DNA of 33,419 nucleotides, from the NCBI GenBank assembly GCA_003644925.1, contig QNDS01000007.1:1-33419 (forward strand), written 5' to 3'. The position numbers and the translations under genes were made by a program. Within the stretch, counting starts at the first letter, position 1. Each line of letters opens with the position of its first letter. The DNA comes from Candidatus Fermentibacterota bacterium. GTDB lineage: Bacteria; Fermentibacterota; Fermentibacteria; Fermentibacterales; JCC-6. Below are positions 8,686 through 31,578 of this stretch, in pieces. Below the pieces are notes generated by a model. It had not been told where the DNA came from. It was given only the letters and a program-made list of their open reading frames with translations, and searched no databases.

Positions 8686-9882
8686 ATGAAAATACCTTCC
8701 ATGAAGGAAATGCTTGAGGCCGGAATACATTTCGGTCACCAGAAGAGTCGATGGAACCCAAAGATGAAGAATTATATCTTCATGGCTCGTAATGGTATAC
8801 ATATCATTGATCTGAAAAAGTCGCGAGCATTGCTTGAAGATGCGGCAAATCTGGTTGCGAAAACAGTTGCCTCAGGGAAAAGCGTTCTGTTTGTGGCCAC
8901 AAAAAAGCAGGGAAGAGAGTGTCTGAAAGAGCATGCTATCAGATGCGGTCAGTATTACGTTACCGAGCGCTGGATGGGCGGAATGCTTACTAACTTCAGA
9001 ACGATCTCAAAAGGTATCCAGACTCTGATCGAACTTGAACAGGCAGAGAAGGATGGATACCCCGCAAGCCTCACAAAAAAAGAAATCCTGAGGAAGAAGA
9101 GACACAGAGAGAAGCTTGAGAAAGATCTCACAGGTATCCGTCACATGAAAAATCTTCCCGGAGCAATTATTGTTGTCGATATCAAGAAGGAACAGATAGC
9201 TGTCAGGGAAGCAAGAAATCTGAAAATACCATGCATAGGTATAGTTGATACAAACTGCGATCCGACAGAGGTGGATTATCCCATCCCCGGCAACGATGAC
9301 GCGATTAAATCCATATCCATGATAGTGGGAACTCTGGCGGATTACGCGCTTCTTGGTGCTGAAGGCTCCACTTCGGAAGCTGCGGATGCTGCAGCCCTGC
9401 AGGAGATGTCCAAAGAATCGACCGAGGAGAAACCGAAGGAAGCCGCCTCGAAGGTTTCCGAAAAGATCGAGAAAGAACCGGTTCCAGATAAACCGGTAGT
9501 GAAAGCTGCTCCTGAGAAGAAAGCTGCTCCTGAGAAGAAAGCTGCTCCTGAGAAGAAAGCTGCTCCTGAGAAGAAAGCTGCTCCTAAGAAGAAAGCTGCT
9601 CCTGAGAAGAAAGCAGCCGCTGAGAAGAAGGCAGCCGCTGAGAAGAAGGCTGCCCCTGAGAAGAAAGCAACCGCTGAGAAGAAGGCTGCTCCTGAGAAGA
9701 AAGCAGCCGCTGAGAAGAAGGCTGCCCCTGAGAAGAAGGCTGCTCCTGAGAAGAAAGCAGCCCCTAAGAAGAAGACTGCTGCTAAGAAAACAACAAAGAA
9801 AGCTGCAGACAAGGATACCGTTTCGGACAATCCTGCTGAAGAAGTGGATAATACCGAAGAGGGAAAGGAATCGGGTGAATAA
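8686..9882 (+). CDS. rpsB: 30S ribosomal protein S2 with long Ala/Lys/Pro-rich repeat tail
   Basis: Residues 1 to about 225 form a normal S2: MKEMLEAGIHFGHQKSRWNP, FMARNGIHIIDLKK, VLFVATKKQ, ERWMGGMLTNF, GAIIVVDIKKE, IPCIGIVDTNCDPTEVDYPIPGNDD and the ADYALLGAEG end. The remaining 170 residues are disordered and charged: an acidic/basic linker, then about 15 copies of a hexapeptide close to AAPEKK, then an acidic end. Ordinary S2 is about 230-260 aa, so the tail nearly doubles it. The tail resembles eukaryotic histone H1-like and AlgP-like repeats; it may bind RNA or DNA, which is inference. It overlaps tsf by one base (TAATG). Confidence 0.96.
   Translation: MKIPSMKEMLEAGIHFGHQKSRWNPKMKNYIFMARNGIHIIDLKKSRALLEDAANLVAKTVASGKSVLFVATKKQGRECLKEHAIRCGQYYVTERWMGGMLTNFRTISKGIQTLIELEQAEKDGYPASLTKKEILRKKRHREKLEKDLTGIRHMKNLPGAIIVVDIKKEQIAVREARNLKIPCIGIVDTNCDPTEVDYPIPGNDDAIKSISMIVGTLADYALLGAEGSTSEAADAAALQEMSKESTEEKPKEAASKVSEKIEKEPVPDKPVVKAAPEKKAAPEKKAAPEKKAAPEKKAAPKKKAAPEKKAAAEKKAAAEKKAAPEKKATAEKKAAPEKKAAAEKKAAPEKKAAPEKKAAPKKKTAAKKTTKKAADKDTVSDNPAEEVDNTEEGKESGE
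9505..9774 (+). repeat. Tandem 18-bp coding repeat in rpsB (15 units)
   Basis: Fifteen in-frame 18-base units, consensus gctgctcctgagaagaaa, encoding AAPEKK with variants AAPKKK, AAAEKK and ATAEKK. The first four units are identical at DNA level, and the later ones mix gcagcc/gctgcc and aag/aaa codons, which suggests older copies plus recent expansion at the 5' end. A sixteenth degenerate unit follows (9775-9792). Copy number may vary between strains. Confidence 0.95.
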
Positions 9883-13302: not shown

Positions 13303-14405
13303 GGAAGGTTGCAGTACTGGGAAGCACCGGTTCGATAGGGACTCAGGCTCTGGAGATCATACATGCGAATCCGGAACTTGAGCTTCATTCATTACTTTGC
13401 GGAAGCAACCTTGATCTTCTTATGCAGCAGAGGGAACAGTTCTCCCCATCTGTAACCGCCATCGATTCTCCGGGCGGGGAATGTCCCGGCGGTATAATAA
13501 CCGGTCAGGATATTCTTCAGAAAACTATTGATGGGGCTGATATGGTTCTCAATGCCATTGTCGGAAGTGCTGGCCTGCGAGCCAGTCTTATCTGCAGGGA
13601 GAGGGGGATTAAGCTGGCTCTGGCCAACAAGGAAAGCCTTGTTGTAGGCGGCGAATTACTCAGCGATCATATCCGCGCCGGGGGCATCATCCCCGTTGAC
13701 AGCGAGCACAGTACGATATTCAGATGCCTGCATTCCGAACCGCGCCCGGTGAGGAGCATTACGCTGACGGCGAGTGGAGGGTCTGTACGGGATCTCCCCA
13801 TTGAAGAACTTAAAAATGCGGGTGTCGATGATATTCTGAATCACCCAACCTGGAATATGGGAGCAAGAATAACGGTTGATTCGGCGACCATGGTGAATAA
13901 AGCCTTCGAGGTCATAGAAGCCCGATGGCTGTTCAGCGGTATAAATATCGATGTGGTCCTGCACCCCCAGAGCATAGTCCATTCCTTTGTAAGGCTTGAG
14001 GATGGTTCCTGGAAAGCACTTCTGGGTAAGCCCGATATGAAAGTGCCATTGCAGTACGCCCTGCAGTATCCGGGCCGCGAGCTTGAACTGATATCCGATG
14101 ATTGCCCCCTTGACTGGGGAACACTCGAGTTCAGCGAGCTTCCAAGGCAGAGGTATCCCGCTTTCGATTTGATCGTGCGGGCCGGACAGGATGGAAAAAC
14201 CTTTCCTGCGGCAGCGAACGCTGCAGATGAAATAGCTATTGCGGCATTTCTTGCCCGGAAGATCAGTTTTGGAGATATAACGGTGGTCATCGAGGAGGTG
14301 CTTAAAGGGCACGAAGCTCTGGAGGTAAGTGATTTTCAGACCGTTATGGAAGCTGACAGGGTATCACGGATTGATGCTGAAAGGATTGTGAGAAGACTAT
14401 GCTGA
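13299..14405 (+). CDS. dxr: 1-deoxy-D-xylulose-5-phosphate reductoisomerase
   Basis: Second step of the MEP isoprenoid pathway, producing MEP with NADPH; it feeds uppS. The start at ATG 13299 (MRKVAVLGSTGSIG, the NADPH motif) overlaps the cdsA stop as ATGA. Conserved segments are LALANKESLVVGG, DSEHSTIFRCL, LTASGGSVRDLP, the HPTWNMGARITVDSATMVNK metal and substrate region, and VVLHPQSIVHSFV. The 368 aa are slightly shorter than E. coli (398). Confidence 0.97.
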   Translation: MRKVAVLGSTGSIGTQALEIIHANPELELHSLLCGSNLDLLMQQREQFSPSVTAIDSPGGECPGGIITGQDILQKTIDGADMVLNAIVGSAGLRASLICRERGIKLALANKESLVVGGELLSDHIRAGGIIPVDSEHSTIFRCLHSEPRPVRSITLTASGGSVRDLPIEELKNAGVDDILNHPTWNMGARITVDSATMVNKAFEVIEARWLFSGINIDVVLHPQSIVHSFVRLEDGSWKALLGKPDMKVPLQYALQYPGRELELISDDCPLDWGTLEFSELPRQRYPAFDLIVRAGQDGKTFPAAANAADEIAIAAFLARKISFGDITVVIEEVLKGHEALEVSDFQTVMEADRVSRIDAERIVRRLC

Positions 14406-15634
14406 GTATTCTAGCAATAATCTTCGGGCTCGGTGTGATAGTGTTTTTTCACGAGATGGGACATCTTCTCATGTCCAAGGCACTCGGACTTGATGTTCCA
14501 CGCTTTTCCCTTGGCTTTCCGCCACATATTCTTAAAAGAAAAATAGGTAAAACGGAATACTGCGTAGGAGTGGTACCCCTGGGCGGATACTGCAAGGTTA
14601 ATCTCGGTACTACTGGCGAACCGGTTACGGATGTCTCATGGTTCCGGCGGGTTCTTGTGGCACTTGCAGGTCCCTTCGCTAACCTTGTGCTCACCGCGCT
14701 GATACTTATAACCGTATACGGTATTGTCGGGTGGGATGTAGATATCACTCCTGCAGTTGTAGGTAATTCTGACAACTCCCTCGGCCTGGGTGTAGGGGAT
14801 ACTGTCCTCTCTGTGAACGGTTATCCTATTGCGGACTATTATGGGATGCTGGGCATGATGTATTCGTCTACTACTGGAACAATGACCGTAGGAACAGCTG
14901 CTGGAGTACTTGAGATGAGTTATTCCCTGTCGGTGGAAACTATTCCTTTCTATGCCATGGTACCTGTAGTAATAGGGGAAGCCATGATAGGCTTTCCCGC
15001 TTACGAATCCGGTTTAAGAGCGGGGGACAGGATAATTGCTGTTGATAGTAAACCTGTATCCATTTGGCATGATTTCCAGTCAATAGTGACAGGGGATACT
15101 GAAGAACTGGCAATTGAGTTCGCACGAAACGGCATCATCGATACAGCTTATGTAACCCCTGGCGTATACGACGGCAATATTATGACCGGTGTTACTCCTC
15201 TGGTGCCTACGGAGAGGGTAAGACTCCCGATCTTTAGAGCTGTTGTTGAGGGTGTTAGATCGGCGGGTGAGGGTACCGTATACGTATGTACCACACTTTT
15301 TAGACTGTTTCAAAAACCTGCTGAGCTGGCCGAGAGTTCAGGAGGCCCCATTTATGTTGCCGAAACCCTTGGACAGCAGGCCCGGTCAGGGTTACCCAGT
15401 TACCTGTATACTATCGCAAGCATATCCATGGCGATAATGATATTCAATCTTCTTCCGATTCCGGTCCTTGACGGGGGACACGTTGTCATCCTTGTCATCG
15501 AGGGAATCAGGGGGAAACCTATTTCAAAGAAGAATGTTCAGATAATCCAGCAGACCGGCATGATAATCATATTGCTTATATTCCTGCTGATTGTCTTCAA
15601 GGATATTTCCAGAGTTATAACACGCGTGCGCTAG
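14399..15634 (+). CDS. rseP: RIP metalloprotease RseP (site-2 protease)
   Basis: Intramembrane zinc protease that cleaves anti-sigma factors in envelope stress. HEMGH (residues 18-22) in the first transmembrane helix is the zinc site. The N-terminal half continues with LGGYCKV and a second membrane helix. A PDZ-like region follows at about residues 180-260 (ESGLRAGDRIIAVDSKPV). The third metal ligand lies in NLLPIPVLDGGHVV near the end, followed by a last helix. The order uppS-cdsA-dxr-rseP is conserved in many bacteria. ATG 14399 overlaps dxr by seven bases. Confidence 0.96.
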   Translation: MLSILAIIFGLGVIVFFHEMGHLLMSKALGLDVPRFSLGFPPHILKRKIGKTEYCVGVVPLGGYCKVNLGTTGEPVTDVSWFRRVLVALAGPFANLVLTALILITVYGIVGWDVDITPAVVGNSDNSLGLGVGDTVLSVNGYPIADYYGMLGMMYSSTTGTMTVGTAAGVLEMSYSLSVETIPFYAMVPVVIGEAMIGFPAYESGLRAGDRIIAVDSKPVSIWHDFQSIVTGDTEELAIEFARNGIIDTAYVTPGVYDGNIMTGVTPLVPTERVRLPIFRAVVEGVRSAGEGTVYVCTTLFRLFQKPAELAESSGGPIYVAETLGQQARSGLPSYLYTIASISMAIMIFNLLPIPVLDGGHVVILVIEGIRGKPISKKNVQIIQQTGMIIILLIFLLIVFKDISRVITRVR

Positions 15635-15725: not shown

Positions 15726-16040
15726 TTACTGCTGACATGCTGGTAATGGAGGTTCCAAAGTAGCTATGGTGTCTGCTATACAGCTGTAAAGGTAGGCCCA
15801 TGCTTCCGGATTCGATTCGCAGGATTGTATCAGAGAGAGTAATTCAGTGTCCTCCGGTTTCCCGGGGCTGAGGCTGTCACCTGGAGGTAGAATCCAGTAC
15901 CTTGCGAGGATTCCCGCCCATTCACGAAGTTCGCTTTTCATATTATCTGAAATAGCGCTGTAGGAATCTGGTTCATCACAGGAAGTCAGTGTAATAAGAG
16001 CGATCATGAGCGGAATCATGACATTTAAGTATATTCGCAT
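15726..16040 (-). CDS. Small predicted lipoprotein (minus strand)
   Basis: A 104 aa protein with a signal peptide and lipobox: MRIYLNVMIPLMIALITLTS then Cys21 (LTSC), followed by Asp at +2, which in E. coli favours inner-membrane retention. The mature part is about 84 residues, acidic, with two Cys and many Trp/Tyr (REWAGILARYWILPPGD, ESNPEAWAYLYS). AGGAGA at 16045-16050 on the complementary strand sits four bases before the ATG. No family recognised. It is the only clear minus-strand gene here, divergent from the peptidase gene and convergent with rseP. Confidence 0.75.
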   Translation of the reverse strand: MRIYLNVMIPLMIALITLTSCDEPDSYSAISDNMKSELREWAGILARYWILPPGDSLSPGKPEDTELLSLIQSCESNPEAWAYLYSCIADTIATLEPPLPACQQ

Positions 16041-16117: not shown

Positions 16118-19100
16118 ATGAAAAAGGCATTGATTCTGTTCCTTCCTGTTTTATTCTCGATCTGTTTCGCAACTTCCTATGGACGCAACAAGGTTCAGGT
16201 AGGAGACCAGGAATGGTGGGAGATTCACGGAAGGCATTTCACCATATATTTTCCTCAGGGTGGAGAAATACCGGCTGAGACTCTTTTAGTACATACAGAA
16301 AGAGAATTGCTGAAACTATCCGAGGAATTCGATTACGTGCCGACGGAACCGATACCTATCGTTCTTTATGTATCTCCCGGCGACTTCAGACAGACCGATA
16401 TCAATCCATACGAAATATCACAGGCAGTCGGGGGATTCACGGAGTTCTACAAAGGCAGAGTTGTAATCCCCTTCACAGGTTACTGGTCGGAGTTCCGCCA
16501 TGTGATAGCCCATGAGCTTAACCATGCTTTTATCTTTGACATGCTTTACAGGCGCTCCCTGCTTAACATCATTACCGGAGGTACACCTCTGTGGATGATG
16601 GAGGGTCTTGCAGAATATACGTCCATAGGTTGGGATGCAGCTTCTGAAGCAGAATTCAGAGATATGGTCATATCATATCAGATCGTTTCAATTGATCAGC
16701 TTTCCAGAAGAAATGACTACCTTGTTTACCGCGAAGGTCAGGCGATCTACCATTTCATGAACGAAAGATATGGAGAGGAGAAATACAGGGAATTCGTGCA
16801 GCGTCTCAACATTCGGAACAGCAGAGATTTTGATACAGGCACTGAATCGAATGGTTCTTCAGATGCAGAGCGAAGATCCGGAGACCCCTTCAACGCGGTA
16901 TTCGACATGTCCAGTGCTCAATTCAGTGAAAAATTCCTGGAGTGGGCCCGGGAAACCTACTGGTCCGAGCTGGCCTGCGGCGAGAGTCCCAATGACATTG
17001 CAAATGCCATTTACAGGGATGATGAAAGAATAATGCAGATAAATTCTGTAGTATCTGCTAACGGAAGGCTAATTGCCGGTGTCGAATATCATCATGCTCA
17101 CCTGGCAGTGACCGTAAGGTCGGCTGTAACGGGTGAGGTGGAGGAAAGATCTTTTGTATCCGGAGGGATCTCTGATGTCTCAGTATCACCAATGTACCGG
17201 GTATGCAGTTTCTCCCCGTCTGCTGATTCCATAGTTGTAGCCGCGCAATACGTTTCCGGAGATCAGCTGATCATCTGTTCTGATGGAAAGCAGGAAAATC
17301 TTCCCTTTGAACTTGAGCTGATACGTGATCCGGCCTGGTCTCCCTGCGGCAGGTACATCGGATTCGCAGGTATGATGGGCGGTCTGCTGAATATCTATGT
17401 CTGGGATATTCAGGAGCAGGAATTGTCCCAGATAAACGATGATATATCAGGTGAACGGGACCTGTCCTGGATCGATGACAGGATCCTTTGCGCTGCTGAA
17501 TCATCCGATGGAGAAACGAGAGTAATCGAATACACTCTAGAGGGTGAATCCGTTACTGTACTGGCTGATTCCTCGGAAATCAGATATCCCATCAGCGTCC
17601 CGGATGGGATTATCTTCATGTCAAATATGAGCGGCTTCCCTGATCTCTACCTGCTTTCGGATGAAACAGGTGAGATTGTGCGCCTTACAGCCCTTTACCG
17701 GACCATCGATTCGCCCTCCTGGGCTTCTTCCACCAATATTCTGACTTTCGTATCAAGTGACTGGAACGGAAGCGGTGTTTTTCTTGCATACGACATTACT
17801 GACAGAAGGGTTATTGCATGTGAACATGGATCATATCATGTAACCACTGCTGACGTGGAAAACAGGCTCATTCCTGAGTACTATCCAATTGACGACTCGA
17901 CATCAGAACAGAGTGTTCGATCGGTATCCAGGATTCCGACAGCTTTTTCTGAGCTTTCCAATGAAGCTGCTTTACCAGATGAGGATGTGCCTGTTCCCTG
18001 CATCGAGGATGAGTTCCTGTGCAGTATTACCCCATACTCACCAAGATTGACCATAGATTACGCCAGCGCTATGGCAGCATACGACTCTTATCTTGGTGTT
18101 GCCGGTTATTTTCAGTTCATTCTCAGTGACATTCTCGCTCACCACCAGATCGCGGTTAATACTAATCTGAACGGAGGCAGTCTCAGCGATGTGGATGTGG
18201 CTGTATTCTATGGCTATCTCCCCCATCGCACCGATTATGTCTTCGGTCTTATGCGGCAATCCTACAGGCATCTGTTCAGGTTTTCCGATGGTCATTACGA
18301 AGAGGTTCGAGATGTTGATATGGGCGGATTTGCTATGGTCAGGTATCCGTTCAGCCCGTCACTGCGGATCACCGGGTCTCTGGAGTACAGGCATTTAAGT
18401 CGAACCGGAACCTGGAATTCTACCGCTGATATTGATGAGGATATTCTTTCCATGCAGGCCGGGATCGTCTTCGATAACGCCCTCTGGGGAAGTGTGGGAC
18501 CGCGGGTCGGAAGCAGATTCAGCATCGTAGCTGAATATGCCCCATCTATCTCAGGATCAGCTAGTTACGGTACGATATTATTTGATCTCAGGAATTATTT
18601 ATGGGTGTCCCAGCGAGTGACATTCGCCACAAGGCTCGCCGGTGGAACAAGCTGGGGGCAGGATGCACAGGTATTCTTTCTTGGAGGCGCGATACCTCAC
18701 AGGCTGTTGTGGGGAGAAGTTGATACTATAGATGAACTGCTTGGTTTTTACTCAAACCAGGGTGATATCCTCAGGGGGTACGATTACGCCACTATTCAGG
18801 GACGCAGATATGGCATCTTTACAGCTGAGTTGAGAGTGCCCTTCGTGAATACTCTTGCGCTTGATGCCCCTCTTCCTCTTGTTTTCAGAAATGGAAGAGG
18901 TGTTCTGTTCTTTGATCTGGGGTGTGCCCTCGATGATATTTCCAATTTTCATGGAGCTTCCACCTCGGGAGGTTTCCATCTTGATGATCTGAAGATGAGC
19001 CTGGGAACCGGATACAGGATCAACTTCGGTTACTTTCTTCTGAAACATGATATCGCATGGCGTACGGATCTTCGCGGTATTTCCCGCAAGCCTGAATACA

Positions 19101-19126
19101 ATGTTACTATCGGGGCTGAATTCTGA
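16118..19126 (+). CDS. Secreted gluzincin peptidase with TolB-like propeller and C-terminal beta-barrel
   Basis: A 1002 aa protein beginning with a signal peptide (MKKALILFLPVLFSICFA). The N-terminal domain is a peptidase-MA-like zinc protease: RHVIAHELNHAF (HELNH at 132-136) and PLWMMEGLAEY, whose Glu162 is the probable third ligand. Residues of about 320-600 are repeat-rich with WSPCGRYIGFAG and related motifs, typical of a TolB/WD40-like beta-propeller. The last 350 or so residues alternate aromatic and polar residues and end in a Phe (VTIGAEF), as in outer-membrane barrels of the BamA/surface-antigen type. GGAGGT precedes ATG 16118. Its substrate is unknown. The upstream in-frame TTG 16100 is not needed. 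Confidence 0.85.
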   Translation: MKKALILFLPVLFSICFATSYGRNKVQVGDQEWWEIHGRHFTIYFPQGGEIPAETLLVHTERELLKLSEEFDYVPTEPIPIVLYVSPGDFRQTDINPYEISQAVGGFTEFYKGRVVIPFTGYWSEFRHVIAHELNHAFIFDMLYRRSLLNIITGGTPLWMMEGLAEYTSIGWDAASEAEFRDMVISYQIVSIDQLSRRNDYLVYREGQAIYHFMNERYGEEKYREFVQRLNIRNSRDFDTGTESNGSSDAERRSGDPFNAVFDMSSAQFSEKFLEWARETYWSELACGESPNDIANAIYRDDERIMQINSVVSANGRLIAGVEYHHAHLAVTVRSAVTGEVEERSFVSGGISDVSVSPMYRVCSFSPSADSIVVAAQYVSGDQLIICSDGKQENLPFELELIRDPAWSPCGRYIGFAGMMGGLLNIYVWDIQEQELSQINDDISGERDLSWIDDRILCAAESSDGETRVIEYTLEGESVTVLADSSEIRYPISVPDGIIFMSNMSGFPDLYLLSDETGEIVRLTALYRTIDSPSWASSTNILTFVSSDWNGSGVFLAYDITDRRVIACEHGSYHVTTADVENRLIPEYYPIDDSTSEQSVRSVSRIPTAFSELSNEAALPDEDVPVPCIEDEFLCSITPYSPRLTIDYASAMAAYDSYLGVAGYFQFILSDILAHHQIAVNTNLNGGSLSDVDVAVFYGYLPHRTDYVFGLMRQSYRHLFRFSDGHYEEVRDVDMGGFAMVRYPFSPSLRITGSLEYRHLSRTGTWNSTADIDEDILSMQAGIVFDNALWGSVGPRVGSRFSIVAEYAPSISGSASYGTILFDLRNYLWVSQRVTFATRLAGGTSWGQDAQVFFLGGAIPHRLLWGEVDTIDELLGFYSNQGDILRGYDYATIQGRRYGIFTAELRVPFVNTLALDAPLPLVFRNGRGVLFFDLGCALDDISNFHGASTSGGFHLDDLKMSLGTGYRINFGYFLLKHDIAWRTDLRGISRKPEYNVTIGAEF

Positions 19127-19179
19127 TGGGGATGGATTATATTCCATAGCATCATGAAATAGTACGGAGGAGTATCGAT

Positions 19180-20034
19180 TTGAAAGTGATATATTTATTA
19201 TTTACTCTGGTATCAATTATTTCCGCATGGACCTGCCCCGCATGCAGTATAGAAAACGACGGAGAATTCTGTACCGATTGCTATCTCCCCGTGCCCCCTC
19301 CGGGTATGGAGTATATAGCTCCCGCAACCGTCATTATTGACGGGGATAGTATCCATGTCGCCCCCTATTTTATTGATAGAGAACCCGTCATCTGCAGAGA
19401 TATTCTCGACTGGTTCGCAGAGGAGATATCCTACGTAGAACAGATCCCGATCTACATCACCGGACAGGAAGAACTGCTGATGCCCGGTGAGAACATGGGA
19501 GAAGATTTCAGGAATATCGTTTTCGTCAGGTACACCCCTTGGGTTATTTACAAGAACGCTCAAAACGGAGTAACCGGCGTTACAGTTCAGACCGGGTGTT
19601 TTGATATCCCTGCTACATCAGTGACGTTCGATGCTGCAAGGCTCTACCTTGGTGATAATGGAAAAAGGCTTCCTACAAGGGTGGAAATAGCAGCCGCTGT
19701 GGAGGCCGGAGTAATTGGAATTGAAGATACATGGGAAGTCATGAACGCTTATTCCGATTTCATATCGATGACCCTTTCGGGCATCATAGGAACATCTCCT
19801 GCAAGATTGGCCATGTTCTCCGAAAATCAGGCACCTGAGGATCGTATAATGTGGGAATGGACGCGCGATGCATGGGAGCAGCCTCCCGATACGATCCCGA
19901 ATCTGCAATCACCGTACGCACTGATACTGAAGCCCCTTGATCCTCCTTTTAAGGGAACAGCGCTGAGGGAGGGCGGATATTACAATGTAATTTTCCGGGG
20001 AGTGGTTCCGATACCCTGGATGGAACAGATTTAA
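19180..20034 (+). CDS. Secreted SUMF1/formylglycine-generating-enzyme fold protein with zinc ribbon
   Basis: A 284 aa protein with a signal-peptide-like start (MKVIYLLFTLVSIISAW), immediately followed by a four-cysteine zinc ribbon (C19, C22, C31, C34). The rest resembles the FGE-sulfatase domain: FIDREPVICRDILDWFAEE, PATSVTFDAARLYL, GKRLPTRVEIAAA, MWEWTRDAW and the ending YNVIFRG. The catalytic cysteine pair of formylglycine-generating enzymes is not visible, so it is probably a non-catalytic binding relative; this is inference. The start is TTG 19180 behind GGAGGAG. It may be co-transcribed with the upstream peptidase gene. Confidence 0.75.
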   Translation: MKVIYLLFTLVSIISAWTCPACSIENDGEFCTDCYLPVPPPGMEYIAPATVIIDGDSIHVAPYFIDREPVICRDILDWFAEEISYVEQIPIYITGQEELLMPGENMGEDFRNIVFVRYTPWVIYKNAQNGVTGVTVQTGCFDIPATSVTFDAARLYLGDNGKRLPTRVEIAAAVEAGVIGIEDTWEVMNAYSDFISMTLSGIIGTSPARLAMFSENQAPEDRIMWEWTRDAWEQPPDTIPNLQSPYALILKPLDPPFKGTALREGGYYNVIFRGVVPIPWMEQI

Positions 20035-20057: not shown

Positions 20058-20660
20058 ATGAGTAATTTATTGAAGATCCTCGCGATTTCTGCTGTAGCTG
20101 TGCTTATTATCGGTTGTGGAGGCAGAGACGTTACCCGGACCGATCCGGACACGGTAACCGATCTCAGCGGTTACTGGAACGAAACCGATGCCCACATGGT
20201 GGCCGATTCAATGGTCATCCAGTGCCTGGACGGTGTATGGCTTTCGGAGTTCTCATCAAGGGCAGGCAGCGGGGCTTCACAGGCTAGACCTGTCATTGTT
20301 GTAGGCGGAATCTACAATCAGAGTTCGGAACATATAAACACAGATATCTTCATGAATGCGATAGAACAGTCTCTTCTGGAATCAGGAAAGGCTCAGATAG
20401 CAGCCGGCGGAGACAGCAGAGGGGAAGTCAGGACTGAAAGAGCGGATCAGACCATTTTTGCCTCACCTGCAACTGCTGCAGCATTCGGCCATGAGATCGG
20501 TGCAGACTTTGTGATGACAGGAAGTGTTGGATCAATAGTCGATGAAGAAGGCAGTACGAGAAGTATTTACTACCAGATCAGCCTTGAACTCATAGATGTC
20601 GAAACTGCACTTAAGTCCTGGATAGGCAGTCTCGAGATCAAGAAGATGATCGAGTGGTAG
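20058..20660 (+). CDS. lpoB: Penicillin-binding protein activator LpoB
   Basis: Outer-membrane lipoprotein that stimulates PBP1b peptidoglycan synthesis in E. coli. Features are a lipobox (AVLIIGC, Cys20), then DLSGYWNETDAHMVADSM, the characteristic LpoB stretch, and an alpha/beta domain with RPVIVVGGIYNQSSEHINTD, FMNAIEQSLLESGK and GADFVMTGSVGSIVDE. Length is 200 aa. The following gene is another lipoprotein commonly found next to LpoB, and the two probably act together. Confidence 0.9.
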   Translation: MSNLLKILAISAVAVLIIGCGGRDVTRTDPDTVTDLSGYWNETDAHMVADSMVIQCLDGVWLSEFSSRAGSGASQARPVIVVGGIYNQSSEHINTDIFMNAIEQSLLESGKAQIAAGGDSRGEVRTERADQTIFASPATAAAFGHEIGADFVMTGSVGSIVDEEGSTRSIYYQISLELIDVETALKSWIGSLEIKKMIEW

Positions 20661-20723
20661 GAACTCTTCTCCGGGTACTCGGAGTTTCTGAATGAACTGT
20701 CCTGTAGTGGAGATGCCGGAATC

Positions 20724-22046
20724 ATGATCAAACCAGCCTGGTTGTTTACCACTGTCGCGATTGCGTCAGCAGTTCTGATCTCCGGTTGTGCAACTGATTA
20801 TACAAGAGAAATGAGGCCGGTGACCTCAAGCCTCAGGATGGACAGGCCTGATCTTGCCATAGAGGAATTCAGGGAGAATTTCACTGATTCCACCGGCAGG
20901 GACAGGCTTCTCTACCTTATGGAGCTTGGCAATCTCATGCGGCTGACAGGTGATTTTGCGGGTGCGGAGAATCTGCTGCTTCAGGCGGACAGATTGAGTG
21001 ATCAGCAGCGCGGAATAGAGCTGGGGCAGGAAATAGAGGCGTTTTTAAGCAGTGATCTGGCTCTTGAATTCAGAGGGGCAGATTACGAAAAGGTTTTTAT
21101 AAATTACTGTTTAGCGGTAAGTTATGCTTCACAGAACAATATGGAAGATGCCCTGGTTGAATGCAGAAGGGTTAACGACAAACTGCGGGTGCTAAATCAG
21201 AATTATGAAGAAAACAGCAACAGGTACGGTGATGATGCGTTCATCAGATACTTCATGGGGATTCTCTACGAGAATGCGGGAGATCTTAATAACGCTCTGA
21301 TAGCTTACCGGAACAGTGCCTCGGTATACGATTCCTCGTATGCGGCGGATTACGGACTCCCGGCTCCCCGGCGTGTAAGATCTGACATTCTCAGGTTATC
21401 CAGCGCACTTGGCATGCAATCGATCTATCAGGATTACGCCTCGCAATGGCCCGGGGTCAGCTGGGAGAACGATGGCCCGGATCAGGATCACGGAGAAGTC
21501 GTTGTTATCCTCGAAGCGGGAATGATCCCTGCAAGAGTAGAAAAATCCTATACCTTTGTTCTCAACGATCGGGTATACAGAGTCTCTCTTCCGGCTATAG
21601 CGTCCCGGCGGCGTGAGTCCTGGTCTGTGACCCTTTCTTCTGGAAACGCGCAGGTTTCCGGGTTCCTTGCCGAAGATCTTACGGGAATTGCCAGAAAGAA
21701 TCTTGAGGACCATGCAGGACGCGACATAGCAAGAGCTGTTGCCAGGCTGGCTGTAAAGGCAGGTGCGGCAGAGGCAGGGGAGCAGCTTGTAGAGGAGCTG
21801 ACAGAAGAGAACAGTGGAATTTCCCAGGTTACCGGCCTCCTTCTGAGCATTGTCGGGGCAGTTACCGAACGGGCGGATCTGAGGGCGTGGCTGACACTGC
21901 CCTCCCAGATATTTGTAGCCCGCCTGAGGCTTCCAGAAGGAGAACATCCGGTCAGGGTTGAAGTTAACGGTCGGATCGTTTTCAGTGATGAATCCATGTC
22001 TATTGATTCTGGCGAAATCAACCTTCTGTTTCTTCGGGAAGGTTAG
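20724..22046 (+). CDS. COG3014-like lipoprotein with TPR-like helices
   Basis: A 440 aa lipoprotein (signal peptide, lipobox LISGC, Cys22). The N-terminal half has TPR-like helix pairs (LLYLMELGNLMRLTGDFAGAENLLLQADRLS, FIRYFMGILYENAGDLNNALIAYRNSASVY); the C-terminal half has GEVVVILEAGMIPARVEKSY, a Ala-rich helical region and a final PSQIFVARLRLPEGEHPV beta segment. This matches the COG3014 type found beside lpoB in other bacteria, a role in peptidoglycan regulation being inferred from that context. The ATG at 20724 follows a 63-base gap. Confidence 0.85.
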   Translation: MIKPAWLFTTVAIASAVLISGCATDYTREMRPVTSSLRMDRPDLAIEEFRENFTDSTGRDRLLYLMELGNLMRLTGDFAGAENLLLQADRLSDQQRGIELGQEIEAFLSSDLALEFRGADYEKVFINYCLAVSYASQNNMEDALVECRRVNDKLRVLNQNYEENSNRYGDDAFIRYFMGILYENAGDLNNALIAYRNSASVYDSSYAADYGLPAPRRVRSDILRLSSALGMQSIYQDYASQWPGVSWENDGPDQDHGEVVVILEAGMIPARVEKSYTFVLNDRVYRVSLPAIASRRRESWSVTLSSGNAQVSGFLAEDLTGIARKNLEDHAGRDIARAVARLAVKAGAAEAGEQLVEELTEENSGISQVTGLLLSIVGAVTERADLRAWLTLPSQIFVARLRLPEGEHPVRVEVNGRIVFSDESMSIDSGEINLLFLREG

Positions 22047-25826: not shown

Positions 25827-26648
25827 ATGTTGGATAACGCTCAAATGCAGGACCTGGCTCTGCAGGTCCGACTGGATGTTCTCGAGATGATAAGGGCTGC
25901 GGGAAGCGGTCATCCCGGTGGTTCATTTTCGGCGGTTGAGATACTTGTCGAGCTGTACTGGAATGTGATGAACATCCGTCCTGAGGATCCACGCTGGACC
26001 GGAAGGGACAGGTTCATTCTATCCAAAGGTCACGCCTGTCCCGCGTTGTACTCGGTTCTCGCCAGAAGGGGGTATTTCGATCCTGCAGAATTTCTGACGT
26101 TCAGGAAACTCGGGTCCAGGCTTCAGGGCCATCCCAACATGCATGTTCTCCCCGGTCTGGATGCCTCAACGGGAAGCCTTGGACAGGGTCTCTCCATCGC
26201 GTGCGGAATTGCCCACGGTATGAAGCTGGATGACAGGGAGAGCCGCGTTTTCTGCCTGCTGGGTGATGGAGAGCTGCAGGAGGGAAGTGTCTGGGAAGCG
26301 GCAATGACCGCCTCCCACTACGATCTGAATCAACTTACGGCTATTGTCGATAGGAACCGGATACAGCTGGATGGAACGGTTTCGGAGGTTATGGAGATAG
26401 AGCCGCTTGTTGATAAGTGGCTGGCGTTCGGATGGGACGTGGTAGTCGCCGATGGGCATAGTTTTCCCTCCCTTGAAAAGGCATTTGAGCACTGCGCACA
26501 AACCCCGTTTCCATCGGTTATCATCGCTGATACGGTGAAGGGAAAAGGTGTTTCATTCATGGAGCATACATGTCTGTGGCATGGCAGATGTCCGGATGAA
26601 AAGGAATATGCTGCAGCCGCCTCGGAGATCAGGGGAGGCCTTTCATGA
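25827..26648 (+). CDS. tktA: Transketolase N-terminal subunit
   Basis: The thiamine-diphosphate-binding half of a split transketolase. Seen are GSGHPGGSFSAVEILVELYW, KGHACPALYSVLA, STGSLGQGLSIA and the thiamine-binding GDGELQEGSVWEAAM followed by DRNRIQLDG, then the DTVKGKGVSFME segment. Length 273 aa matches the split form. GAGG lies six bases before ATG 25827. The stop overlaps the second subunit as ATGA. Confidence 0.95.
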   Translation: MLDNAQMQDLALQVRLDVLEMIRAAGSGHPGGSFSAVEILVELYWNVMNIRPEDPRWTGRDRFILSKGHACPALYSVLARRGYFDPAEFLTFRKLGSRLQGHPNMHVLPGLDASTGSLGQGLSIACGIAHGMKLDDRESRVFCLLGDGELQEGSVWEAAMTASHYDLNQLTAIVDRNRIQLDGTVSEVMEIEPLVDKWLAFGWDVVVADGHSFPSLEKAFEHCAQTPFPSVIIADTVKGKGVSFMEHTCLWHGRCPDEKEYAAAASEIRGGLS

Positions 26649-27577
26649 ATGATCTGAAGCCAACGAGGGAAGGGTATGTTGAAGGTATTCTGCAGGCAGG
26701 TAGAGAGAACAGCCGTGTTGTTGTTATCGAAGGGGATGTTTCCCGATCCATCGGGAGCGCTTCATTCGGAGAGGAATTTCCTGACAGGTTCTTCAACCTC
26801 GGAGTAAGCGAGCAGGATATGCTTGGTGAAGCTGCAGGCCTGGCCCTCGAGGGATTCATCCCATTCGTCGGAACGTACGGCGTGTTTTTAGCAGGCCGCG
26901 CGTGGGATCAGATCAGGACAAGTATCTGTTATATGAACCTTGATGTCCGCATAGCCGGCGCGCATGGCGGAGTAAGCGTGGGGCCGGACGGAGCAACACA
27001 CCAGGCTCTGGAGGATGTAGCCCTGATGCGTGTACTTCCCGGCATGAAGGTTCTGGTTCCGGCGGATTCCAATCAGACCAGAGCGTCGGTTATTGCATCT
27101 CTTGAAGCTGATGGTCCTGTTTATATCCGCTTTGGAAGAAATCCGGTTCCCCGGATTTACACATCTGATGATAAAGTGATTATCGGTAAGGGGAATCTGC
27201 TGAAAGATGGTTCTGATGTAACACTGGTTGCCTGCGGAGCCATGGTGAGTTTGTCCATTGAAGCGGCAGCCATTCTCAGGGGAAAAGGCATTTTAGCCGG
27301 GGTTATCGATATGATTTCAGTGAAACCCCTTGACAGGGAACTTCTTGTAGAACAGGCAGGAAAGACCGGAGCCGTTGTCGTGGCGGAGGATCACCAGGTA
27401 ACAGGCGGCCTGTTCGGGGCAGTGGCAGAGACCCTTGCACGGGAGCTGCCTGTTCCAGTAGATACCGTTGCCATGCAGAATACTTTCGGTACCAGCGGGA
27501 CTCCGGAACGTGTAATGGAAAAGTACGGGCTTACCGCAATAGCAATAGCAGAGAAAGCGCAGAGGATGCTGCAGTGA
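26645..27577 (+). CDS. tktB: Transketolase C-terminal subunit
   Basis: Partner of the preceding gene, containing the pyrimidine-binding and C-terminal domains. Seen are VVVIEGDVSRSIGS, FFNLGVSEQDMLGEAAGLALEG (catalytic Glu for thiamine), GAHGGVSVGPDGATHQALEDVALMR, VYIRFGRNPVP and the VVAEDHQVTGGLFGAVAE tail. Length 310 aa. Together with the N-subunit and the aldolase it forms a non-oxidative pentose phosphate set. Confidence 0.95.
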   Translation: MNDLKPTREGYVEGILQAGRENSRVVVIEGDVSRSIGSASFGEEFPDRFFNLGVSEQDMLGEAAGLALEGFIPFVGTYGVFLAGRAWDQIRTSICYMNLDVRIAGAHGGVSVGPDGATHQALEDVALMRVLPGMKVLVPADSNQTRASVIASLEADGPVYIRFGRNPVPRIYTSDDKVIIGKGNLLKDGSDVTLVACGAMVSLSIEAAAILRGKGILAGVIDMISVKPLDRELLVEQAGKTGAVVVAEDHQVTGGLFGAVAETLARELPVPVDTVAMQNTFGTSGTPERVMEKYGLTAIAIAEKAQRMLQ

Positions 27578-30576: not shown

Positions 30577-31578
30577 GTGAGTGCCGTGAATATCTGGGAA
30601 AGAATGCTCAATATAGACCGGCGCTGGATCTTCCTTGGAATAGGGATAGTATCAATAGTACCGTTCTTCATCAATTTCGGACTGCCTGTGACTACTACAA
30701 TGGAGGTCGAGAGTATCTTCGACTATGTCAATGAACTTGGTCCCGATAATGCCATCTTCATCAGTTTCGATTTTGCCCCCGGAACACAGGCTGAGAACAT
30801 GCCCATGGCAGTTGGCGTAATGCGCCATGCGTTTCACAACGATGTTCCGGTTTTCATGACCGCGAACTATCCTCTGCATCATGGAATGATGCTTGCCGCA
30901 ATGGAGTATGTATTCAATCCAACTACGGTAGGATTCTATCAGGAAGTTTTCTTCGATGACTGGAGGGATCTTCGCGAGGCGGGAGTTACAGGAAAGTATG
31001 AGCTGATTGAGGCCTGGGAGAACCAGGGGAACCAGCTTCCGGATGGAGCTATGGGCTGGGTTTTCGAAGGCAGGGATTACGCAGCCTTAGGCTACGCTCC
31101 GGTCTTCAACCTTGTGATACTTGGAATGACCGTCTCCATAGAAACGCAGTACCCGGTCGATGCACATGGAAACTCCACCGGGGAAATGCCAATGCTCCGT
31201 GAACACAAGAGCCTCAGGGAAATAGACCTGGCTCTTACCAGTTCAGGCTCCGGTGCCTGCGTTTGGTGGGTCACCTATGCCCGGGAAAAGATAGGGCTGC
31301 CAATTGCTTTCGGCCTGACAGCCGTCATGGCTACGGATTACTTTCCGTACCTGCAGTCTGGACAGGTAATAGGCCAGATGGGAGGTCTGCGAGGAGCCGC
31401 CGAATACGAGGTACTTCTAACCGAGAACGGTATTACACCCACCACCGATAAGGCGTTCACCGGGATGGATGTCCAGTCAGCAGCACACATCCTTATAATT
31501 CTGCTGATCATAATGGGTAACATTGCGTTCTTTGCGGGAGGTTTTCATAAGAAGACCCTGCTTAAGGGAGGGAGTTAG
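30577..31578 (+). CDS. Two-helix-anchored alpha/beta membrane protein (cluster gene C)
   Basis: 333 aa. A transmembrane helix at about 17-37 (WIFLGIGIVSIVPFFINFG), a large soluble domain, and a second transmembrane helix near 306-326 (HILIILLIIMGNIAFFAGG). The soluble part alternates strands and helices (ESIFDYVNELG, NAIFISFDFAPG, PMAVGVMRHAF, VPVFMTANYPL, GMMLAAMEYVF; later YAPVFNLVILGMTVSIETQY, GACVWWVTYAREKIGLP). The pattern resembles the soluble domain of gene A, so the two may be distant paralogues. GTG 30577 begins directly after the previous stop; GTG 30586 is an alternative. Function unknown. Confidence 0.8.
   Translation: MSAVNIWERMLNIDRRWIFLGIGIVSIVPFFINFGLPVTTTMEVESIFDYVNELGPDNAIFISFDFAPGTQAENMPMAVGVMRHAFHNDVPVFMTANYPLHHGMMLAAMEYVFNPTTVGFYQEVFFDDWRDLREAGVTGKYELIEAWENQGNQLPDGAMGWVFEGRDYAALGYAPVFNLVILGMTVSIETQYPVDAHGNSTGEMPMLREHKSLREIDLALTSSGSGACVWWVTYAREKIGLPIAFGLTAVMATDYFPYLQSGQVIGQMGGLRGAAEYEVLLTENGITPTTDKAFTGMDVQSAAHILIILLIIMGNIAFFAGGFHKKTLLKGGS

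Follow-up and report, generated by a model that had tools for sequence, protein, structure and literature searches.

The window analyzed here, a stretch of 33,419 nucleotides from a Candidatus Fermentibacterota genome, encodes on its forward strand a protein of 1002 residues that, by sequence comparison, unites three parts in one chain: a metallopeptidase domain, a propeller like that of TolB, and a barrel of the Omp85 type. This peptidase-propeller-barrel protein (PTB) is followed by the gene of a secreted protein with a zinc ribbon and the fold of the formylglycine-generating enzyme (FGE, SUMF1). The closest named loci to the window belonged to Fermentibacteria, Aegiribacteria, and Sabulitectum metagenome-assembled genomes. 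The features of PTB were as follows.

16118-19126, + strand: PTB open reading frame (ORF), predicted Omp85-superfamily protein lacking POTRA, 1002 residues
16118-16171, + strand: signal-peptide-like N-terminus MKKALILFLPVLFSICFA, read from the sequence, with cleavage expected at about residue 18
16304-16807, + strand: Peptidase_MA_2 metallopeptidase domain, residues 63-230
16511-16525, + strand: HELNH zinc-binding and catalytic motif, intact, residues 132-136
16601-16615, + strand: EGLAE motif, residues 162-166
17318-17767, + strand: core of the TolB-like beta-propeller, residues 401-550 by profile (entire propeller about 297-560)
18020-19123, + strand: C-terminal Omp85-type beta-barrel, residues 635-1002
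18773-18781, + strand: RGY motif, residues 886-888

The hydrophobic N-terminus of PTB was kept in its relatives. The peptidase domain was matched by PF13485 with an E-value of 2.3e-8 and a score of 34.5 bits, above the Pfam cut-off of 32.4. H132, E133, and H136 of the HELNH motif, together with E162 and G163 of the downstream EGLAE motif, were unvaried in all 57 aligned full-length PTB-family proteins, and E166 was kept in 55 of them. An HExxH motif with a downstream Glu is the pattern of the Peptidase MA clan; E162 probably serves as the third zinc ligand, and the metallopeptidase is apparently intact. The propeller core was matched by TIGR02800 (E 1.9e-9), and solved TolB structures matched residues 404-563 (E 1.5e-7). 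Against the full TolB model of the Tol-Pal system, PTB scored 37 bits versus a cut-off of 343, and the propeller is all that PTB and TolB have in common.

The Omp85 model NF047779 matched residues 773-970 of the barrel (E 7e-9). A barrel profile made of 14 barrel regions taken from different lineages aligned with POTRA-Omp85 proteins over nearly its entire length (hhalign probability 98.9, E 3.8e-17) and retrieved BamA structures (E 7e-7). The RGY motif, which fits the RG(F/Y) loop-6 motif of Omp85 proteins, lined up with the RGY of BamA in this alignment; R886 was found in 56 and G887 in 53 of the 57 aligned proteins, and the C-terminal residue was aromatic (F, Y, or W) in 53. With the whole-PTB cross-phylum profile, TolB was matched at E 2.6e-27, and an Omp85 structure was matched at profile positions 638-993 (E 8.5e-10). 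No POTRA was found by Pfam in PTB, nor among the Pfam families matched by 32 sampled members. With its homologous barrel, RG(F/Y) motif, and aromatic C-terminus, PTB is judged from these profiles to be a member of the Omp85 superfamily. The initial annotation of the window had described an HELNH peptidase, a TolB-like propeller, and a barrel in a single chain, and the ORF, the Pfam and NCBIfam domains, the TolB structures, and the hhalign comparison all agreed with that description.

The profile of 17 Fermentibacterota PTB proteins (A1 alignment) was searched against 290 genomes. A match was present in all 42 Fermentibacterota genomes, the best match in one of them (G033) being a contig-end fragment only, and in about 72 of the 248 other genomes at E≤1e-25. 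Among 59 PTB loci from other lineages, 55 had a single ORF spanning the whole architecture, and two of the remaining four were cut by contig ends. The identity of these cross-phylum homologues to PTB of the window was mostly 24-31%, and Pfam detected Peptidase_MA_2 in 30, PD40 in 29, and Omp85 in 19 of the 32 sampled members. The architecture, which the initial annotation had called unusual, is by these matches that of an old multi-phylum family shared by many distantly related bacteria; the full-length homologues across many phyla ruled the earlier description out. No curated NCBIfam model covered the entire architecture, and a search of plasmids yielded one Salinibacter ruber peptidase-propeller relative only, covering half of the query. 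None of the 16 panel genomes that lack POTRA contained the family at E≤1e-25, and this co-occurrence is weak evidence, as 274 of the 290 genomes have POTRA. Many genomes (G115, G256, G177, G099, G213, G231, and others) had another PTB-like ORF, about 950-1060 residues long and with an N-terminal match, which indicates that paralogous PTB subfamilies exist.

Comparison with described Omp85 proteins placed PTB close to one subfamily. According to the main text of Heinz and Lithgow (2014, PMC4104836), WD40-Omp85 proteins consist of a TolB-like propeller and an Omp85 barrel and were likened to a fusion of BamA and BamB. As described there, the propeller lies N-terminal to the barrel and POTRA is missing, as in PTB; by that description, rather than by the sequences of its members, the subfamily differs from PTB in the peptidase, which precedes the propeller in 30 of the 32 PTB members by Pfam. 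The main text of that paper (PMC4104836) makes no use of the word “peptidase”. PTB, as read from its sequence, fits the architectural definition given in that text, with a conserved peptidase added. The “Metallo” subfamily of the same main text (PMC4104836) likewise carries an enzyme-like domain ahead of the barrel, but it is built on PF00149, a domain other than that of PTB, and no propeller is described for it there. No report of a peptidase in WD40-Omp85 proteins was found in a literature search that covered neither subscription papers nor supplements. The PF00149 domain of the “Metallo” proteins is presumably a phosphoesterase of the calcineurin-like kind rather than a protease.

Enzyme domains fused to Omp85 barrels have a precedent in PlpD, a patatin-Omp85 protein whose enzyme domain stays in the periplasm, the earlier claim of its export having been overturned (PMC11116518). 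PlpD differs from PTB in having a patatin-like (lipase-type) domain and one POTRA, and in having no propeller. The barrels of BamA, TamA, and TamL are homologous to that of PTB, as the hhalign comparison indicated, whereas PTB is without POTRA. A BamA-type protein was encoded elsewhere in the same genome: contig 62 (L003) contained a separate 743-residue protein with four POTRA stretches and an Omp85 barrel. Two further Omp85 proteins were present on contigs 138 and 22 (L004, L005), one of 580 residues with one POTRA stretch and a barrel and one of 361 residues in which Omp85 but no POTRA was matched. Since the genome has these separate POTRA-Omp85 proteins, PTB appears to be an addition to BamA and not a replacement. 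In E. coli, bamA lies after rseP, the same position as that of PTB; the candidate reading of PTB as the BamA of this genome, based on that position, was rejected because of the protein on contig 62.

The gene directly following PTB had these features.

19180-20034, + strand: secreted zinc-ribbon and FGE/SUMF1-fold protein, 284 residues, TTG start
19234-19281, + strand: CxxC-x8-CxxC ribbon (C19, C22, C31, C34)
19351-19719, + strand: FGE-sulfatase domain core with GKRLPT motif, residues 58-180

Its signal-peptide-like N-terminus was followed directly by CPACSIENDGEFCTDC. The four-Cys ribbon right after the signal peptide, pointed out in the initial annotation, was unvaried in all 17 homologues and also discernible in less closely related families of the order; curated ribbon profiles matched it weakly (DUF7577 in 12 of the 17, best E 0.003; DZR_2 in seven, best E 0.006). 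The SUMF1 fold proposed at the same time was borne out too, with PF03781 found in all 17 homologues and, for the protein of the window, at E 3.9e-5 and 23.9 bits (cut-off 23.3); SUMF2 and FGE structures were matched at E 5e-5 and 1e-3. The FGE-sulfatase domain is thus shared with FGE (SUMF1) and FGE-like proteins, but the region of the C-terminal catalytic pair is devoid of Cys and an extra ribbon is present at the N-terminus. None of the 17 homologues had a Cys after residue 140 (window numbering), and a formylglycine-generating enzyme was rejected as the identity of this protein for want of the C-terminal catalytic Cys pair. The reading that suits it best is a periplasmic partner particular to Fermentibacterota, for binding or as a scaffold. 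The periplasm could oxidize the four ribbon Cys residues, which would then form disulfides instead of binding zinc, so the zinc role is putative.

The two genes were part of a longer conserved cluster, whose other members in the window were the following.

14399-15634, + strand: rseP, M50 site-2 protease (Peptidase_M50 and PDZ; TIGR00054), also near PTB elsewhere
15726-16040, - strand: small predicted lipoprotein of 104 residues with an LTSC lipobox, between rseP and PTB
20058-20660, + strand: LpoB homologue with lipobox (PF13036, E 6.7e-33)
20724-22046, + strand: TPR lipoprotein (TPR_2), fourth gene of the conserved cluster

In Fermentibacterota the order was dxr, rseP, the small lipoprotein gene on the opposite strand, PTB, the zinc-ribbon/FGE gene, lpoB, the TPR lipoprotein gene, deoC, uvrD, and tal. 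This order was kept down to 35-60% protein identity and mostly maintained across three families of the order, and rseP was upstream of PTB in the loci extending that far. Homologues of the 104-residue lipoprotein, which had no Pfam family, occupied the same place in many of these loci. The LpoB and TPR lipoprotein genes (20058-22046) lay directly downstream in every Fermentibacterota locus reaching them, and this pair may link the cluster to peptidoglycan synthesis.

The zinc-ribbon/FGE protein was present in all 42 Fermentibacterota genomes, and its gene was found together with PTB in 40 of the 40 whose contigs allowed the test, so the pairing noted in the initial annotation held within the phylum. 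It did not extend further: no full-length partner was found outside Fermentibacterota in the phyla examined, only short FGE-motif matches. This pairing, with its order conserved over the three families, would suit an obligate functional pair, which we nevertheless regard as rather unlikely, since PTB is common outside the phylum where the full-length partner is absent. Moreover, an unrelated membrane-protein gene stood between the two genes in five of the 40 genomes, and lpoB, the TPR lipoprotein gene, deoC, and uvrD were likewise kept in the same order. The inserted gene encoded a hydrophobic protein of about 230 residues (L124 3924-4639, L125 5134-5864, L126 5080-5772, L127 4847-5539, and L118 2668-3378), which we take to resemble queuosine-precursor transporters of the YhhQ type.

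Outside Fermentibacterota, rseP preceded PTB in the same orientation, within about 10 kb, in five of 55 genomes. When Fermentibacterota were included, the genomes with this arrangement fell in at least four separate places on the PTB tree (FastTree, with long branches). By a rough estimate, chance would give 0.2 cases of this type per single-copy gene, a figure that takes no account of how many genes might have drawn attention. The association is supportive and not proof, because of this and because other genes recurred as well. The gene tamB was directly upstream of PTB in three genomes: G175 had an unbroken run of dxr, rseP, POTRA/Omp85, tamB, PTB, and uvrD; G235 had rseP, one gene, tamB, and PTB; and G248 had tamB immediately upstream of a PTB paralogue. 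In G196, mlaE began 9 bases downstream of PTB and was followed by an ABC ATPase gene (L056 5973-10711), possibly forming a PTB-Mla lipid-transport operon.

On this anatomy and distribution, we infer with about an even chance of being right that PTB is a periplasm-facing protease for assembly or quality control at the outer membrane. The barrel would sit in the outer membrane, and, by analogy with other Omp85 proteins, the peptidase and propeller would face the periplasm where those proteins carry POTRA. The propeller would most likely recruit clients or lipoprotein partners, as TolB and BamB propellers do, and the peptidase would most likely trim or destroy envelope proteins that are maturing or stalled at the outer membrane. 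The barrel would anchor the device and might share in insertion. The working mode proposed resembles that of BepA, a metallopeptidase acting on clients at BAM (PMC8423444). BepA is likewise a periplasmic HExxH enzyme of outer-membrane protein quality control, but it stands alone as a soluble protein and belongs to a different peptidase family (M48), so the likeness is one of analogy only. PTB could then be a single-chain analogue of the BamA barrel, BamB/TolB, and BepA, working alongside a separate POTRA-bearing BamA-type protein, and in Fermentibacterota the co-encoded zinc-ribbon/FGE-fold protein would be a probable periplasmic accessory. The invariant catalytic residues, the conservation across phyla, and the envelope-gene neighbors favored this role in assembly or quality control. 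Several points weighed against it. The AlphaFold2 models from 17-row alignments, the check proposed in the initial annotation, had a pLDDT of 39.7 for PTB and 37.6 for the zinc-ribbon protein, a very low confidence that made them too poor to use, and the barrel was instead known from sequence profiles alone. The matches of the peptidase domain in the PDB were marginal (collagenases, E 0.04), so its fold rested on Pfam and the motif. The orientation of PTB was taken by analogy, no experiment on any member of the family was found in the literature, rseP, tamB, and mlaE were neighbors in a minority of the genomes outside Fermentibacterota, and murA and radA each recurred beside PTB in four loci, nearly as often as rseP.

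The main alternatives give the barrel or the peptidase a different part. In a role like that of TamA or TamL, the barrel would be the outer-membrane partner of TamB or of Mla-type lipid or protein conduits, with the peptidase and propeller mainly binding or docking in place of POTRA. The tamB genes of G175, G235, and G248, the mlaE gene of G196, and the matches of the TamL model in 19 of the 32 members and, weakly, of the BamA model in 15 agreed with such a role, but the strict HExxH and downstream Glu in all 57 proteins argued for catalysis, tamB was distant from PTB in most genomes, and G175 had its own POTRA-Omp85 protein beside tamB. We consider this role unlikely. A periplasmic enzyme that digests peptides and has nothing to do with membrane assembly, the barrel being only an anchor or pore, is improbable. 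Propellers gate several peptidases, and the N-terminal profiles of Dpp5 and DPP IV matched the propeller region of many members; these were general propeller matches, however, with TolB the best, an Omp85 barrel that has kept its RG motif and its aromatic C-terminus is no mere anchor, and the neighborhood pointed to the envelope.

The least probable alternative is a surface or secreted proteolysis unit, in which the barrel exports the peptidase or displays it outside the cell. The signal-peptide-like N-terminus, the intact peptidase, and the barrel of PTB would suit it, and Omp85-fold TpsB proteins do translocate passengers. Against this, the N-terminal domains of Omp85 proteins face the periplasm, as the PlpD case illustrates, the neighbors of PTB were genes of envelope biogenesis, and two folded domains of about 600 residues would need to cross the membrane. 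The initial annotation had left the choice between surface proteolysis and assembly; the PlpD precedent and the rseP, POTRA-Omp85, tamB, and mlaE neighbors favored assembly and disfavored the surface. The case of PTB warns against taking such proteins for surface proteases.

If assembly or quality control is the function of PTB, a protein that possibly joins, in a single chain, the function of an outer-membrane barrel with proteolysis is present in many diderm phyla; E. coli divides this task between BAM lipoproteins and separate proteases. A wider proposal, which we put forward tentatively and hold to be doubtful, is that of an Omp85 barrel class spanning phyla in which POTRA was exchanged for a metallopeptidase and a client-binding propeller, uniting outer-membrane protein assembly with proteolytic quality control and tied to a module of RseP, BamA, and TamB, with the zinc-ribbon protein as a periplasmic partner in Fermentibacterota. 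WD40-like Omp85 proteins have been introduced as conserved but not well characterized (PMC11116518, introduction), and the invariant peptidase site with the recurring vicinity of rseP, POTRA-Omp85, and tamB make this gap the subject of a testable hypothesis.

Elsewhere in the window, an ORF of 333 residues at 30577-31578 had no Pfam match at E 0.01. The ORF of ribosomal protein S2 (8686-9882, 398 residues) was matched by the Pfam S2 family at residues 9-220 only and thus has a long C-terminal extension. Transketolase at 25827-27577 was encoded by two adjoining genes, one for the N-terminal and one for the C-terminal half.

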